Shown here piece after piece: positions 3,113 through 8,501 of a DNA stretch of 36,009 nucleotides. Under the pieces are notes generated by a model, which ran no database searches, was not told the origin of the DNA, and saw nothing but the letters and a program-made list of their open reading frames with translations. The stretch spans positions 1-36,009 of the forward strand of contig JADQBG010000019.1 in assembly GCA_016278725.1 (NCBI GenBank), read 5' to 3'. Every line of letters starts with the position of its first letter. The stretch's first letter is position 1. Source of the DNA: Actinomycetota bacterium. Lineage in GTDB: Bacteria > Actinomycetota > Thermoleophilia > RBG-16-64-13. Position numbers and translations under genes: made by a program.

Positions 3113-3769
3113 CTATACTTGATCCAGGACGCGCACCTGCTCCAGGAGCAAAGACTTGAAGCGATCGAGGGTGACCGGGTAGGACTGCATCGCCACGCCC
3201 ATCCAATCGGCGTATTCCAGTAGATCCTCGGGCTGCTCGGCGACGTACTGTTCGCAGTATCCGACGCCATCGAGCACGATCGCCCCGCCCTCGTGCTTGG
3301 GGAAGTTCTCGTTGGCCCGCGCCTCGTCCCAGCCTTTGAACACCTCGTGCCGATACTTGACCCATCCCGGGGTCATCCACCACACCTTGGCTCCCCCGGC
3401 CAACTCCTGCGCAATTTGCTCCCGCTCTTCCTCGTTCGCGATCATGTCCATGCAGTGGGTGGCCTCGATTCTGGCCACACGGGGTCCCTGCTCGGCAATG
3501 ACCTGACTCATGGTGCGCGTCGGCTCCCTCACGTTGACGTAGCAAAAGGCGCCGCCAAAGACGACAAGCACCTTGTCGGCCTTTGTCTTTGCGTGCTCTA
3601 TCCGCGCGAGGAGCTGCCGTTCGAGCTCAGCGGGCTCCTGGTGAAGCCCGGGGGCGGTGAAGAACAGGTGCTCGGTATCAAGAAAACCGGACTCTCGCAA
3701 AGCGCGCAACTCGAGGCTCATCGTGCCGCACGCAACGACGGCGATATCGGCGAAGGAGGTTCCGTTCAA
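3113..3769 (-). CDS. DUF1638 family protein
   Basis: About 218 residues. The N-terminus carries the DUF1638 signature: a hydrophobic strand followed by ACGTMSLELRAL (IAVVACG core), and the body has LVVFGGAFC, RIEATHCMDMI and a long helical C-terminus. The most likely start is the TTG at 3769, which has GAGGAG 8 bases upstream; a GTG at 3778 is in frame but sits on that same ribosome-binding site. DUF1638 proteins have no proven biochemical function, but in anaerobes and methanogens they are often encoded near corrinoid or methyltransferase genes. Here the gene lies 128 bp downstream of the GrdB-like selenoprotein on the same strand, and a TATACCC/GGGTATA palindrome in the gap suggests it can be controlled separately. 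Cys and His residues in ACG and THC could bind a metal or cofactor; that is inference. Confidence 0.85.
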   Translation of the reverse strand: MNGTSFADIAVVACGTMSLELRALRESGFLDTEHLFFTAPGLHQEPAELERQLLARIEHAKTKADKVLVVFGGAFCYVNVREPTRTMSQVIAEQGPRVARIEATHCMDMIANEEEREQIAQELAGGAKVWWMTPGWVKYRHEVFKGWDEARANENFPKHEGGAIVLDGVGYCEQYVAEQPEDLLEYADWMGVAMQSYPVTLDRFKSLLLEQVRVLDQV

Positions 3770-3815
3770 TTCAACCACTCCTCGGGTGAGAGTTGCTCCG
3801 GGTCAGGGCCGTCAG

Positions 3816-3833
3816 TATACCCCAGAGGGTATA
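3816..3833 (-). promoter_or_regulatory. TATACCC-CAGA-GGGTATA palindrome upstream of the DUF1638 gene
   Basis: A perfect 7-bp inverted repeat with a 4-bp centre lies about 47 bp upstream of the DUF1638 start. Its right part provides a TATACT that could be a -10 hexamer for the minus strand. The TACCC...GGGTA pattern resembles operators of the CsoR/CstR repressor family. There is no T-run, so it is not a typical terminator. Confidence 0.4.
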
Positions 3834-3897: not shown

Positions 3898-4812
3898 TCA
3901 ATCCGCCCGAGGAATTTCGCCCGACACCAACTTCAGGTATAGCCAGGGCTTGCGCTTGATCAGCTGCCCGATGGGTGGCGTCTCCCCATGGCTCTCCCGC
4001 CGCACCTGCTTTGCCGGTTCGGGCCAGACAAAGGGCAGAGTGGTCACCGTGCCCGGTTCCTCGGCCTCTTCCAGCACGCGCAAAGCCGCCTCCAGCACGG
4101 TCCGCTCGCCGCGTTTGTCCCCCGGGTTGCCCAAGGGGCGACCGTTGGGGTAGGCGATGGCGGCCACCCGCGGAACTCCGGGAGCCGCGGTGAAGTCGGG
4201 AATCATGGAGAGCGACACGGTGGGGATGCCGGCCGCCTCGATCTCGCGCTGCGCCAGTCCCACGGACCGGCAGCAGAAGGGTCAGACCGGCACCAGCGCC
4301 ACGGCGTCAACCTGCTCCTCCTTGAGGCGCCGAACGATCGCGGGCACGCTCGTGCGCAGAAACTCGTCGGCGTCGAGCAGGTAACCCATGAAGGAGTAAT
4401 GCGTGGGTGCGGCCTCGGCGATCACGCCCTCTTCGGCCAACTCGCCCAGGCGTGCGAGAGGCAGCACGCAGTCCAGGTCCGATTCGCCGAAGGAGCGGTC
4501 GATGTGCAGGTGACAGAGGCGGACGTCCTCGGTGCAGGCGGAGCGGGGAATCACCCGGAAGCTGGGATCACCCCACCAGGGGTTCCGGCGCTCTCCCTCC
4601 TGGTCGAAGGGCTCCCCTTCCCTTGGCGCCACTCCCGCCGAGCTAATCAGGGCGACGCGGCACTCACTCAAGGGTTTCTTCAAGGGTGTCCAGGGAATCG
4701 GGCGGCGCTCCTCGCGCTCGATCCACGCCTTGATCACCCGCTTGGTCGCGCCGTCCAGAAACTGAAGGGAGTCGAAGCCGGCGCTACGGACGCTGCGTGT
4801 TGTCGCTGTCAT
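3898..4812 (-). CDS. GrdB-like glycine/sarcosine/betaine reductase family selenoprotein (in-frame UGA = Sec177)
   Basis: Read through the TGA at 4284-4282, this is one 304-residue protein. Without readthrough it falls into two in-frame pieces (4812-4285 and 4281-3898), and the whole matches the GrdB-type selenoprotein B family. Landmarks are TPLKKPLSECRVALISSAGV near residue 45, a DPSFRVIP segment, THYSFMGYLLD, then ALVPV-U-PFCCRSVGLAQ around Sec177 and AGIPTVSLSMIPDF after it. The motif U-x-x-C-C is where other members have Cys or Sec in C/U-P-x-C. A bulged 12-bp hairpin with a GUG loop starts right after the UGA, as required for a bacterial SECIS element. The ATG overlaps the stop of the upstream SRPBCC gene (TGATG), and GGAG lies 9 bases before it, so the two are translationally coupled. 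Known relatives reduce C-N bonds of glycine, betaine or D-proline with thiols; for this shorter stand-alone type the substrate is unknown. Expression requires selABCD elsewhere in the genome. Confidence 0.88.
4249..4276 (-). promoter_or_regulatory. Bacterial SECIS-like hairpin directly after the in-frame UGA
   Basis: On the minus strand, 12 base pairs form: 4276-4273 with 4249-4252, a bulged U at 4272, then 4271-4264 with 4253-4260 (one G-U pair). The apical loop is GUG (4263-4261). The loop begins 18 nt after the UGA, and a G is the first loop base. Both agree with the published bSECIS consensus (UGA-to-loop spacing about 16-37 nt, G in the first two loop positions). The hairpin would recruit SelB with Sec-tRNA. 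Confidence 0.8.
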
Positions 4813-5468
4813 CAAGAGACTCCTTCCGCCCGGCGCTTGATTCCCAAGAGCATTTTGCGCTCCATCACGTGGTGCAGTGGCTCGATCGCCACCTTCCACA
4901 TCAGGAAGTCGGCGATGGTGGGCACATAGCCCCGGCGGTTGCGGGCGATGAGGCGTGTCCGTCCCCGCCCCTCGGCTTCCAGGATGAACAGCCACGACTC
5001 CTCGATGGGAGCCATCTCGCCCTCGGGGGCATCGGCTTCCAGCAGGAGGTAGCGTCCGGGCTGCACCGCGGCGACCGTGTAGAAGGGGCCGTTCTTGCCG
5101 ATGTAGATGCGTTCGCCGTTGGAGACGGATTGGTGCTCGGGCAGGACTATCTCGGCGCTATGGATGTCCGCGCCGATCAGGTTCTCGAGGCGGTCGTAAC
5201 TGTAGAAGCCGCCGCGTCCCTGGCCGATCTGCGCAAGCCAGGGCCAGACATTTTCCACCGGGGCCTCGATGCTCACGGCGCGATTGGAGATCTGTTGAGG
5301 CCGAGCCACGAGCTCGTCCCCGGGCAGCCGCCGCTCCCGCTCCTGCTCGCTGGTCCCCCACGCCAGATGCCAAGGGCGAAACCAACCGACATATCCCGAT
5401 AAGCCCAGCAGGCCGGCGCCCGCCGCTCCCACGCCTCTGGGTCCAAGAACTCGTTCGCGCCACTTCAC
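4812..5468 (-). CDS. Membrane-anchored SRPBCC-fold protein
   Basis: A 218-residue protein. I place the start at GTG 5468 because AGGAGG lies 9 bases upstream; the open frame extends further to 5645 but that part looks non-coding. After VKWRERVLG there is a hydrophobic stretch (residues about 12-30) that looks like a membrane anchor. The rest has the typical order of polyketide cyclase/SRPBCC proteins: [35 protein letters not shown], a beta-rich middle with [14 protein letters not shown] and SWLFILE, and a C-terminal helix with [20 protein letters not shown] domains bind hydrophobic ligands in a deep cavity; the ligand here is unknown. The stop codon overlaps the ATG of the downstream selenoprotein gene, which suggests a fixed ratio and a shared job. 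Confidence 0.82.
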
Positions 5469-5632
5469 TCCGACAGCCCTCCTGCGTGTGGTCAGTGCAC
5501 GAGTAAGGCTATTGCACGAGGCAGGCGGCCACACCGGCCAGGTGGGTTGAATCGGGGCCGTCATTCTCGGGGGCCTGACCCTGGCCGATAGTAGAGGAGG
5601 TGGACGAGAACCGAGAACACGGGCCGCGCGGA

Positions 5633-5658
5633 GGAACGCCGGCAATCGCCGGCGTTCC
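5633..5658. other. Perfect 11-bp hairpin between divergent or tandem genes
   Basis: GGAACGCCGGC, loop AATC, then its exact complement. It lies between the ABM-like gene (ending at 5699 on the minus strand) and the SRPBCC gene. It could terminate the minus-strand ABM-like transcript, but no T-run follows on either strand, so termination is uncertain. Confidence 0.45.
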
Positions 5659-5983: not shown

Positions 5984-6300
5984 GACGATCACCTTCTCCC
6001 GTCTGGAATAACGGCGAGCCGGACCGGACGCGAAACAGCTGCCTTAACCGGCTCTATACGTGTTAAATCTTCCCGGCGGCGATGAGTTGGGAACACCACT
6101 GCCCGCGCGCTCGGGACGATCAGGCCGCCTGCGCGGTCGACATCACTTCGCGTCCCCTGTCCGACGCGCTCCCCGCGTAGATCGCCGGCAGCGCGGGTAT
6201 CCCTGGCACGACCGTGGGCCTTCTCGTCTCTTTCCTCGACCGTGAGGGGGCGCGGCCTATGGGCGGCGAGACAAGAACTGCGAAAAAGAGGAGCTCTGCC
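5984..6300. other. Intergenic region between divergent genes
   Basis: Between the divergent ABM-like gene and the FMN reductase gene. The start of the FMN reductase lies at its right end, with GAGGAG at 6288-6293. Short open frames in this stretch have no recognisable content. Nothing else is seen. Confidence 0.5.
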
Positions 6301-6879
6301 TTGACCTACAAAGTCGGCTACTTCGTCGGGAGCTTGGCCTCGGACTCCATCAACCGGATCCTCTCCGAGGCGCTCAAGAAGGTCGCGCCGTCGGATCTGG
6401 AGTTCATCGAGATCCCCATCGGGGACCTCCCGCTCTACAGCCGCGACTACGATGCCGACTTCCCTCCCCCGGCGCGGGCGCTCAAGGACAAGATCGCCTC
6501 GGTGCAGGCCGTGCTCTTCATCTCGCCCGAATACAACCGCGCCATCCCCGGCGCGCTGAAGAACGCCATCGACTGGGCCTCGCGGCCCCACGGCCAGAAC
6601 TCTTTCTCCCGGAAGCCTTCGGCCATCATCGGCGCCTCCACCGGACGCATCGGGACCGCGGTCATGCAGTCGAACCTGCGCAGCGTGCTGGCCTTCTGCG
6701 ACTCCCCGCAGCTGAACGTGCCCGAGGCCTACATCCACTTCACCCCCGGCCTCTTCGGCCAGGACGGCGAGATCAAGGATGAAGGGACCAAGGCCTTCCT
6801 CACTACCTACATGGAGGCGTTCCGGGAGTTCATCATCCGGGTGCTCACCGTGGTGCCGCAGAACTTGCCGCAGGCCTGA
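6301..6879 (+). CDS. NAD(P)H-dependent FMN reductase (flavodoxin-like fold)
   Basis: A 192-residue protein. The start is TTG 6301, with GAGGAG 7 bases upstream; the open frame extends upstream to 6214 without good coding content. It has the family's signatures: VGYFVGSLASDSINR (phosphate-binding loop of FMN), IEIPIGDLPLYSRDYD, then SPEYNRAIPGALKNAIDWAS near residue 77 (the key FMN/NADPH contact region) and IGASTGRIGT. Proteins of this family (NADPH-dependent FMN reductase, chromate or azo reductase type) transfer electrons from NAD(P)H to FMN, quinones or other acceptors in the cytoplasm. The gene converges with the DedA gene, with only three bases between their stop codons. Confidence 0.92.
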   Translation: MTYKVGYFVGSLASDSINRILSEALKKVAPSDLEFIEIPIGDLPLYSRDYDADFPPPARALKDKIASVQAVLFISPEYNRAIPGALKNAIDWASRPHGQNSFSRKPSAIIGASTGRIGTAVMQSNLRSVLAFCDSPQLNVPEAYIHFTPGLFGQDGEIKDEGTKAFLTTYMEAFREFIIRVLTVVPQNLPQA

Positions 6880-6882
6880 GCC

Positions 6883-7503
6883 TTAAGCGGAATCCCCCAG
6901 GCGCCGGCCCATTACGTAGGCGGCCAGGCCGATCACCAGGAACAGGGCGATGCCGCCCCCCACCAGGGCCCAGCGGTACGTCCCGTGCAGGCGAGAAACC
7001 CAGTCGGATGCGAAGTAAGCGGCGGTCGTCCAGAAGGCCACCCAGAGAGCGGCGCCGAGCGCGTTTAGCGGCAGGAAGCGCTTCCAGCCGTAGTGGAGGG
7101 TGCCCGCGACGATGCCGTTTAGCTGCCTGAACCCCTCGACGAAGCGGGCAATGACGATCACCCAGCCCCCGTAGTGATCGAAGAAGGACTGCGCGTGATC
7201 GAGTCGCTGCGGGGTGACGAGGTAGTGCCCGCCGAGGTGAACCCGGCAGCCAAGTCCGAGGATCAGACGTCGGCCGCCGTAGTGGCCGATCGCGTAGCCC
7301 ACGTTGTCGCCCGCCACCGCCGCGGCGAAAGCGAAGAGGGCGACCAGAAAGATGTTCAGGTTGCCCTGTCCCGCCTCCACCGCCCCCGCGATAAGGACGG
7401 TCTCCCCAGGCGAGGGGATACCGAAGTCCTCGACGAAGATGAACAGGACGATGGCCGCGTAGCCCCAGGTCTGCAGCAGGTGATTGACATCGATCCCGAA
7501 CAA
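6883..7503 (-). CDS. DedA family membrane protein
   Basis: A 206-residue integral membrane protein, probably beginning at TTG 7503 after a purine-rich GAGGGTGG. It carries the DedA/SNARE-associated hallmarks: an N-terminal amphipathic part, FVEDFGIPSPGETVLIAGA, a middle GDNVGYAIGHYGGRRLI, then FFDHYGGWVIVIARFVEGFRQ (the conserved F/Y-G-x(3)-I/V-x-x-R-F-x-x-G-x-R motif) and two or three C-terminal membrane helices. DedA proteins act as lipid or ion transporters/flippases in the cytoplasmic membrane and affect membrane potential and envelope integrity. There is no obvious operon partner; the neighbouring FMN reductase is convergent. Confidence 0.93.
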   Translation of the reverse strand: MFGIDVNHLLQTWGYAAIVLFIFVEDFGIPSPGETVLIAGAVEAGQGNLNIFLVALFAFAAAVAGDNVGYAIGHYGGRRLILGLGCRVHLGGHYLVTPQRLDHAQSFFDHYGGWVIVIARFVEGFRQLNGIVAGTLHYGWKRFLPLNALGAALWVAFWTTAAYFASDWVSRLHGTYRWALVGGGIALFLVIGLAAYVMGRRLGDSA

Positions 7504-7665
7504 CGGCCACCCTCACGTCAGGCGAAGAGATTCGCGCGGACCGCGCCGAGCGGTCCGACTCGACCTCCTCTACCCTCATTCGGGAGCAGAGAGTCACCGC
7601 GCGACGCCGACCATGTGCGTCCCGCCCGCGGAAGGGAGGAACAAAGTTCAGCCCCGGTCTCTGGG

Positions 7666-7695
7666 TAGCTACATTCTTGTTAGAATAGCTACATT
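7666..7695 (+). promoter_or_regulatory. Direct repeat TAGCTACATT x2, probable operator of the toxin-antitoxin genes
   Basis: Two exact copies of TAGCTACATT (7666-7675 and 7686-7695) are spaced 20 bp start to start, two helical turns. They lie about 80-105 bp upstream of the antitoxin GTG. A TAGAAT lies between them and may be a -10 element. Autoregulation by antitoxin binding to repeats is normal for this type of operon. Confidence 0.5.
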
Positions 7696-7771
7696 ACGGA
7701 AACGCCCCTCCCGTGCCGAACCAGCGGGTGTGGAGCGCCGTCGTCGGAGACGAGCGAAAGCAGGATATGGT

Positions 7772-8047
7772 GTGCAGGTAGGTATCAGGGAACTCAAGAA
7801 CAACCTTAGTCGCTTGCTGGTCCGGGTCAAGGCCGGGGAAGAGATCGTGGTCACCGACAGGGGACGCCCGGTCGCCAGGATCGTGGGAGAACCTTCGGCG
7901 CGAGAGCCAATCCGCAAGGTGCTCGAGCCTCTCGTAGAACAAGGTCTCATCACGCTGCCGGTCCGGGGGCGGAGAGATGACGTCGTAGCCCTCGACATCC
8001 CAGAGGGGCGGCCGGTTTCGGAGATCGTGCTCGAGACACGCCGTTAG
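7772..8047 (+). CDS. Phd/YefM-type antitoxin (VapB partner)
   Basis: A 91-residue protein starting at GTG 7772 with AGGA 6 bases upstream. The N-terminus VQVGIRELKNNLSRLLVRV, with GEEIVVTDRGRPVARIV, is the classical Phd/YefM antitoxin DNA-binding fold. The C-terminal part (LVEQGLITLP onwards) is the toxin-binding tail. It lies 13 bp upstream of the PIN toxin gene, so the pair forms a bicistronic type II toxin-antitoxin operon. The direct repeats upstream are the likely operator. The upstream open frame to 7484 is not supported. Confidence 0.9.
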   Translation: MQVGIRELKNNLSRLLVRVKAGEEIVVTDRGRPVARIVGEPSAREPIRKVLEPLVEQGLITLPVRGRRDDVVALDIPEGRPVSEIVLETRR

Positions 8048-8060
8048 CAAGGGCCCGGAG

Positions 8061-8501
8061 TTGCTCCTCTACCTCGACACGAGCGCCCTGGTGAAGCGCT
8101 ACGTACGGGAAAGCTACTCGGACGAGGTCGTTTCCTGGTGGCAATCGGCCGACCACCTTGCCACGTCGTTCGTCGCCTATGCGGAAGCGCTGGCCGCCTT
8201 CCACCGAAAGAGGCGTGAGGCCAACGTGGCCCAGGACCTCTTCGACCAATTGATCGGACGGTTTCACGACGACTGGGAAGCGCTTATTCGGGTCGAAGTG
8301 AACGCCGGTCTGGAACCATATGTGCTCGATCTCGTCGAGCGTCACCCCCTAAGGGGCTTTGACGCCATCCACCTCGCGTCGGCTGTGGCGCTTCACGAGC
8401 GAGTACTCCAGGAAACCAACGAGAACCTCGTTTTCGCCTGCTTTGACGAGAGACTCGTCGGCGCCGCCCGAGCCGAGGGTATGGCCGTCTATCCAGGCTG
8501 A
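8061..8501 (+). CDS. vapC: VapC-type PIN-domain ribonuclease toxin
   Basis: A 146-residue protein beginning at TTG 8061, with GGAG immediately before it, so the start is somewhat uncertain. The four acidic PIN residues are all visible: Asp6 in LYLDTSALVKRY, Glu42 in YAEALAAF, Asp101 in GFDAIHLASA and Asp129 in ACFDERLVGAA. An intact Mg-dependent ribonuclease active site is therefore likely. Known VapC toxins cleave tRNA or rRNA and stop translation until bound by the antitoxin. The antitoxin gene is directly upstream, on the same strand. Confidence 0.92.
   Translation: MLLYLDTSALVKRYVRESYSDEVVSWWQSADHLATSFVAYAEALAAFHRKRREANVAQDLFDQLIGRFHDDWEALIRVEVNAGLEPYVLDLVERHPLRGFDAIHLASAVALHERVLQETNENLVFACFDERLVGAARAEGMAVYPG

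Follow-up and report, generated by a model that had tools for sequence, protein, structure and literature searches.

A predicted stand-alone PrdB-like selenoprotein encoded without a pyruvoyl partner in an Actinomycetota genome

In D-proline reductase and glycine reductase, the pyruvoyl group of a partner subunit activates the amine of the substrate (see also PMC10838667). Recent reviews enter Sec-containing PrdB under D-proline reductase (PMC9312934, PMC13188914), and the portions of two metagenomic surveys that deal with this family describe it as abundant, with 42 sequences of Sec-containing "proline reductase PrdB" in the Sargasso Sea data (PMC1088965) and 235 in the GOS metagenomes (PMC2398784). 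The protein examined here, encoded in a 36,009-nucleotide stretch of Actinomycetota DNA (contig JADQBG010000019.1; hereafter the window, meaning the whole stretch), has the family name and the UxxC motif in common with these sequences; in the same portions of PMC1088965 and PMC2398784, however, they are called proline reductases and no PrdA-less clade is set apart. Judged by their description beside the window protein, the Sargasso Sea and GOS "PrdB" proteins are probably largely of the same stand-alone kind. The original prediction held that this stand-alone type has no established substrate, in agreement with the open-access literature, in whose text we found no paper separating a PrdA-less clade.

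A second point of comparison is the FarB/FarE fluoroacetate reductase of Cloacibacillus, which resembles the present case as a GrdB-like selenoprotein proposed to be pyruvoyl-free (PMC10838667). Unlike the window protein, FarB is a GrdB homologue whose operon includes a GrdE-like partner, and it has a link to GrdA (PMC10838667). Sec-containing PrdB-like proteins are already known, and the window gene adds a stand-alone member to them. Many such proteins are found in the absence of the pyruvoyl partner, the defining feature of D-proline or glycine reduction; their annotation as amino acid reductases is for that reason doubtful, and what this widespread selenoprotein family does becomes a testable question.

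The window gene lies on the minus strand (3898..4812), starts with ATG at 4812 and encodes 304 residues plus a stop. As predicted, the TGA at 4282..4284 (minus strand) interrupts one continuous frame: read as Sec, it turns 4812-3901 into a single 304-codon ORF, whose translation carries U177 in the context V-P-V-U-P-F-C-C. The codon at 4273..4275 (minus strand) specifies Cys180, the partner Cys of the U-x-x-C motif and a nearly invariant column in the alignment. A plain ORF finder returned two pieces, 4995-4282 and 4263-3898, just as automatic annotation had been expected to do; the analysis confirms one gene where such a finder would report two.

Searches of GTDB genomes and relatives recovered homologues in Chloroflexota, Acidobacteriota and Bacillota, and the alignment spans the TGA. 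The residue-177 column holds TGA in 48 distinct DNA sequences (duplicates removed) and TGC (Cys) in eight loci (L016, L106, L107, L108, L110, L114, L115 and L116), with no other codon among the homologues inspected, bearing out the expectation that relatives have Cys or Sec at this place. All eight Cys loci are single uninterrupted genes, which argues that the two halves of the window gene are one gene and disposes of the possibility, raised with the original prediction, that the parts exist separately in homologues. The resolving-Cys position is not universal, being occupied by Ser in L016 and by a second TGA in two genomes. In these two genomes, which belong to one family (L088/L104 in G173 and L111 in G203), TGA occurs at the positions of both residue 177 and residue 180 (U-P-I-U), so that two Sec residues are predicted in one stand-alone PrdB-like protein.

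The hairpin behind the TGA (4249..4276, minus strand) is composed of CUGC, a bulged U, GCCGGUCC, a GUG loop, GGACUGGC and GCAG. RNA folding reproduced the predicted 12 bp, single bulged U and GUG loop with G first, the hairpin starting 5 nt and the loop 18 nt after the UGA. These values fall within all limits of the bSECIS model (loop of 3-9 nt, upper stem of 4-16 bp, spacing of 16-37 nt, G at loop position 1 or 2, and MFE <= -7.5 kcal/mol; PMC13188914). The folding energy of the window hairpin by itself is unremarkable (z -1.48, with equal folding in 14 of 200 shuffles) and constitutes weak SECIS evidence; an Rfam scan of the window at gathering scores gave no match.

Comparison across homologues was more informative than energy, since folding energy alone is not decisive and it is the Sec/Cys column together with the covarying apical helix that carries the selenoprotein case. 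In 28 distinct sequences picked for the same hairpin register, a choice that makes the paired percentage lean upward, the eight pairs of the apical helix are standard in 96.9% of cells, against 15-56% paired in slid controls. Four of the eight pairs are changed on both sides, in 10 cells of this kind. The paired percentage, the number of both-side-changed cells and the covariation score were each matched by none of 500 shuffles, and the count of four both-side-changed pairs by 5 of 500. When all 48 sequences are taken, 82.8% are paired versus 19-54% in slid versions. Bacillota, Dehalococcoidia and some other clades have the hairpin in a different register, so that the earlier description of a "textbook" SECIS holds for the window gene's own clade but not for those in which the hairpin is shifted. 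Identical codons were more frequent behind the TGA (62-75% versus 42-43%), but in none of three pairs was this excess significant.

The genome to which the window belongs (2.73 Mb, 99.65% complete) encodes all four components of the Sec system that were sought: selA (464 bits), selB, which adjoins selA (344 bits, with its neighbours in frame), selC as one tRNA-Sec (74.9 bits, above the Rfam gathering score, with ARAGORN calling the same tRNA), and selD (401 bits). The SelD gene (L055, G000 C26:106754-107677) carries an in-frame TGA of its own, and this SelD is probably itself a selenoprotein. Among 396 genomes sampled from the window's phylum, 77 contained a family match, some of these with full-length GrdB; SelA was present in 70 of the 77 and in 156 of the 319 genomes without a match (Fisher p 1.5e-12), and the seven family-match genomes without SelA are 75-91% complete. 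We are highly confident, on comparative grounds, that the UGA at codon 177 would be decoded as selenocysteine and that the gene encodes a selenoprotein.

Profile searches placed the window protein closest to PrdB (TIGR04483), at 148.6 bits against an equivalog cut-off of 300. The GrdB models TIGR01917 and TIGR01918 gave 52.7 bits, below their cut-offs of 602.2 and 65.45, and the sarcosine and betaine models gave 56.7 bits (cut-off 800) and 54 bits (cut-off 775). Under the curated cut-offs, the protein qualifies neither as a true PrdB nor as a true GrdB. PF07355 (GRDB) matches at 31.9 bits, over the Pfam gathering score of 22, in the C-terminal half of the profile only, the match beginning at profile position 214 and the N-terminal half of GrdB being absent. 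The original label "GrdB-like" is to be refined accordingly, the nearest family being PrdB and not GrdB. The PrdB control, L027 of Halanaerobium, reaches 420 bits (420.3) and has PrdA (974.5 bits) directly upstream, and the stand-alone members tested score 51-175 bits. A Bacillus member is covered by NCBIfam TIGR01918, at 86.2 bits against the cut-off of 65.45 that the window protein does not reach.

In a quick maximum-likelihood tree with SH-aLRT support, the window protein groups with L010, L011 and L093 (SH-aLRT 99) within a stand-alone set that stands apart from L027 and two GrdB sequences (SH-aLRT 88). Nearly all stand-alone members have U-P-x-C where PrdB and GrdB have U-G-T-C. At the sequence level, the protein thus belongs to a clade whose relatives are PrdB and the C-terminal half of GrdB. 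With PrdB, the 26-kDa selenoprotein of D-proline reductase, it shares the nearest profile, a similar core length and a Sec inserted after UGA within U-x-x-C; it differs in reaching half the required score, in its UPxC motif, in the lack of PrdA and in an extra C-terminal segment of about 40 residues common only to its nearest relatives. With protein B of the GrdB/GrdF/GrdH type (PF07355, TIGR01917, TIGR01918), it shares a homologous C-terminal half with Sec in the same place, whereas their N-terminal half is missing from it and GrdE and GrdA are missing from its genome.

These absences emerged from controlled searches. PrdA was not found in the window's own genome by a whole-genome search with the PrdA of L027, which was positive in control genome G457, and PF09338 had no match there but was positive in control genomes. 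Neither GrdE nor GrdA was found in the same genome, both searches being positive in G089, G026 and the genome of L029. As far as the genome sequence indicates, the clade member described here is encoded without PrdA, GrdE or GrdA. Relatives of the same class carry a glycine reductase set (L037/L038/L046 in G089 and G026), in which GrdE and GrdA were found; the GrdB of L037 has UGTG, not UGTC.

An AlphaFold2 model built with 21 sequences (pLDDT 91, pTM 0.90) positions Sec177 between strand 170-174 and helix 180-193. Sequence search returned no PDB relative and Foldseek no match at E 0.001; the best VIA-align hit, microcystinase C at Z 8.1, is uninformative since many unrelated Rossmann-like rows reach Z 6-7. 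The model suggests an alpha/beta fold of the Rossmann-like type in which Sec177 immediately precedes the N-terminal end of a helix.

We propose that the bSECIS and the SelA/SelB/SelC/SelD system would place Sec at codon 177, and that the Sec177 selenolate may then attack or reduce a small electrophilic substrate with no need for a pyruvoyl Schiff base. Cys180 would then resolve the intermediate on selenium by forming a selenenyl-sulfide, from which a thiol or a flavoprotein disulfide reductase could restore the selenol. Direct selenolate chemistry is the likeliest course because no pyruvoyl partner is encoded, and a single-subunit selenol reductase working without such a partner is the most likely role, although for this mechanism as such our confidence is only somewhat better than even. 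The explanation as a whole, a 304-residue selenoprotein of a pyruvoyl-partner-free clade acting by direct selenol chemistry, we consider probable. More tentatively, and with slightly less than even confidence, the stand-alone clade may constitute a class apart, made up of single-subunit selenol reductases that are independent of a pyruvoyl group, act on a substrate of their own and are recharged by a flavoprotein disulfide reductase. If so, most aerobic or marine "PrdB" proteins would not reduce D-proline.

Several competing interpretations were weighed against this proposal. An ordinary stop codon, leaving a broken gene or two separate genes, would account for the split made by the ORF finder; yet the same TGA recurs in tens of genomes from several phyla with Cys alternatives, is followed by a covarying SECIS and lies in a genome equipped with Sec machinery, so that comparison leaves this reading a negligible probability and refutes it for practical purposes. 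A PrdB subunit of D-proline reductase, with PrdA located elsewhere in the genome, is what the best-scoring profile would suggest, but the score falls far short of both the cut-off and bona fide PrdB L027, the PrdA and PF09338 searches were silent, the Sec motif is UPFC and not UGTC, and L027 falls outside the clade in the tree; this reading is largely refuted and very improbable. Much the same fate meets the idea of a substrate-binding protein B in a glycine-, sarcosine- or betaine-reductase-like system that passes its selenoether to GrdA. The Pfam GRDB match speaks for it, whereas the absence of GrdA and GrdE from a genome searched with positive controls, and of the GrdB N-terminal half from the protein, makes it scarcely credible and amounts to a refutation, save for the case that the little sequence still missing from the genome encodes both a GrdA-like acceptor and GrdE.

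More substantial, as an alternative to a substrate-specific selenol reductase, is an antioxidant selenoprotein of general thiol-disulfide or peroxide-reducing activity that does not act by bond cleavage in one particular small molecule. It is consistent with the U-x-x-C motif and its UxxU form in two genomes, with a disulfide-reductase flavoprotein near the gene in several lineages, with the frequency of Sec-containing PrdB in marine surface metagenomes (PMC2398784) and with stand-alone members in Bacillaceae and their kin. Against it, the protein belongs to the PrdB/GrdB family and not to the thioredoxin or peroxiredoxin families, and conserved G-D-x-x-x-R and T-H-Y-S-F-M-G-Y segments may form a substrate pocket. 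We regard an antioxidant role as possible but doubtful.

The genomic neighbourhood offers one lead to an electron donor for the proposed selenol reductase. Eight genomes from three families encode a lipoamide/mercuric-reductase-like FAD disulfide reductase on the same strand, downstream of the gene (L031/L039, L063/L091, L073, L078, L089, L108, L109 and L110). The two genes are immediate neighbours in G230 (L091) and no more than about 1 kb apart in G006 (L039), and in six genomes of family f19 the flavoprotein gene follows within about 4 kb. Few lineages support this association, six of the eight genomes being from a single family, and the flavoprotein, below cut-off for all NCBIfam equivalogs, belongs to no single curated one; as a lead only, it is a possible electron donor of the stand-alone protein. 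In the window, no redox partner adjoins the gene, the nearest being an FMN reductase gene on the other strand (6214-6879).

No conserved operon partner was found across relatives, and neighbours vary between clades. The candidates discarded were YchF GTPase and DUF6391, which have the appearance of housekeeping genes and lie on either side of the gene in just one family; metallo-beta-lactamase (MBL)-fold and TetR genes, seen in another family; SulP, in a third; and DUF1638, in the window only. In three genomes of one clade (L096, L098 and L100), the stand-alone gene directly follows an MBL-fold gene, with a TetR regulator gene also beside it in L096, an arrangement that could represent an inducible detoxification unit.

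Immediately upstream in the window, an ORF on the minus strand (4812..5645) overlaps the ATG of the selenoprotein gene with its stop by one base (TGATG), and because of this overlap the two are probably co-transcribed. The ORF has no Pfam match and reads like an SRPBCC-type protein. Downstream lies the DUF1638 gene (3113..3778, minus strand), whose adjacency to the selenoprotein gene was not found in relatives; a link has been described between DUF1638 and the reactivation of B12 during methionine synthesis (PMC5764234). Elsewhere in the window, the plus strand has an ORF whose end is Phd-like and, after it, a PIN-like ORF (7484-8501); by eye the two look like an antitoxin-toxin pair. About 38 bases before the start of the DUF1638 gene is a near-palindrome, TATACCC-TCT-GGGGTATA (3816-3833), which we take to resemble operators of the CsoR/CstR type.
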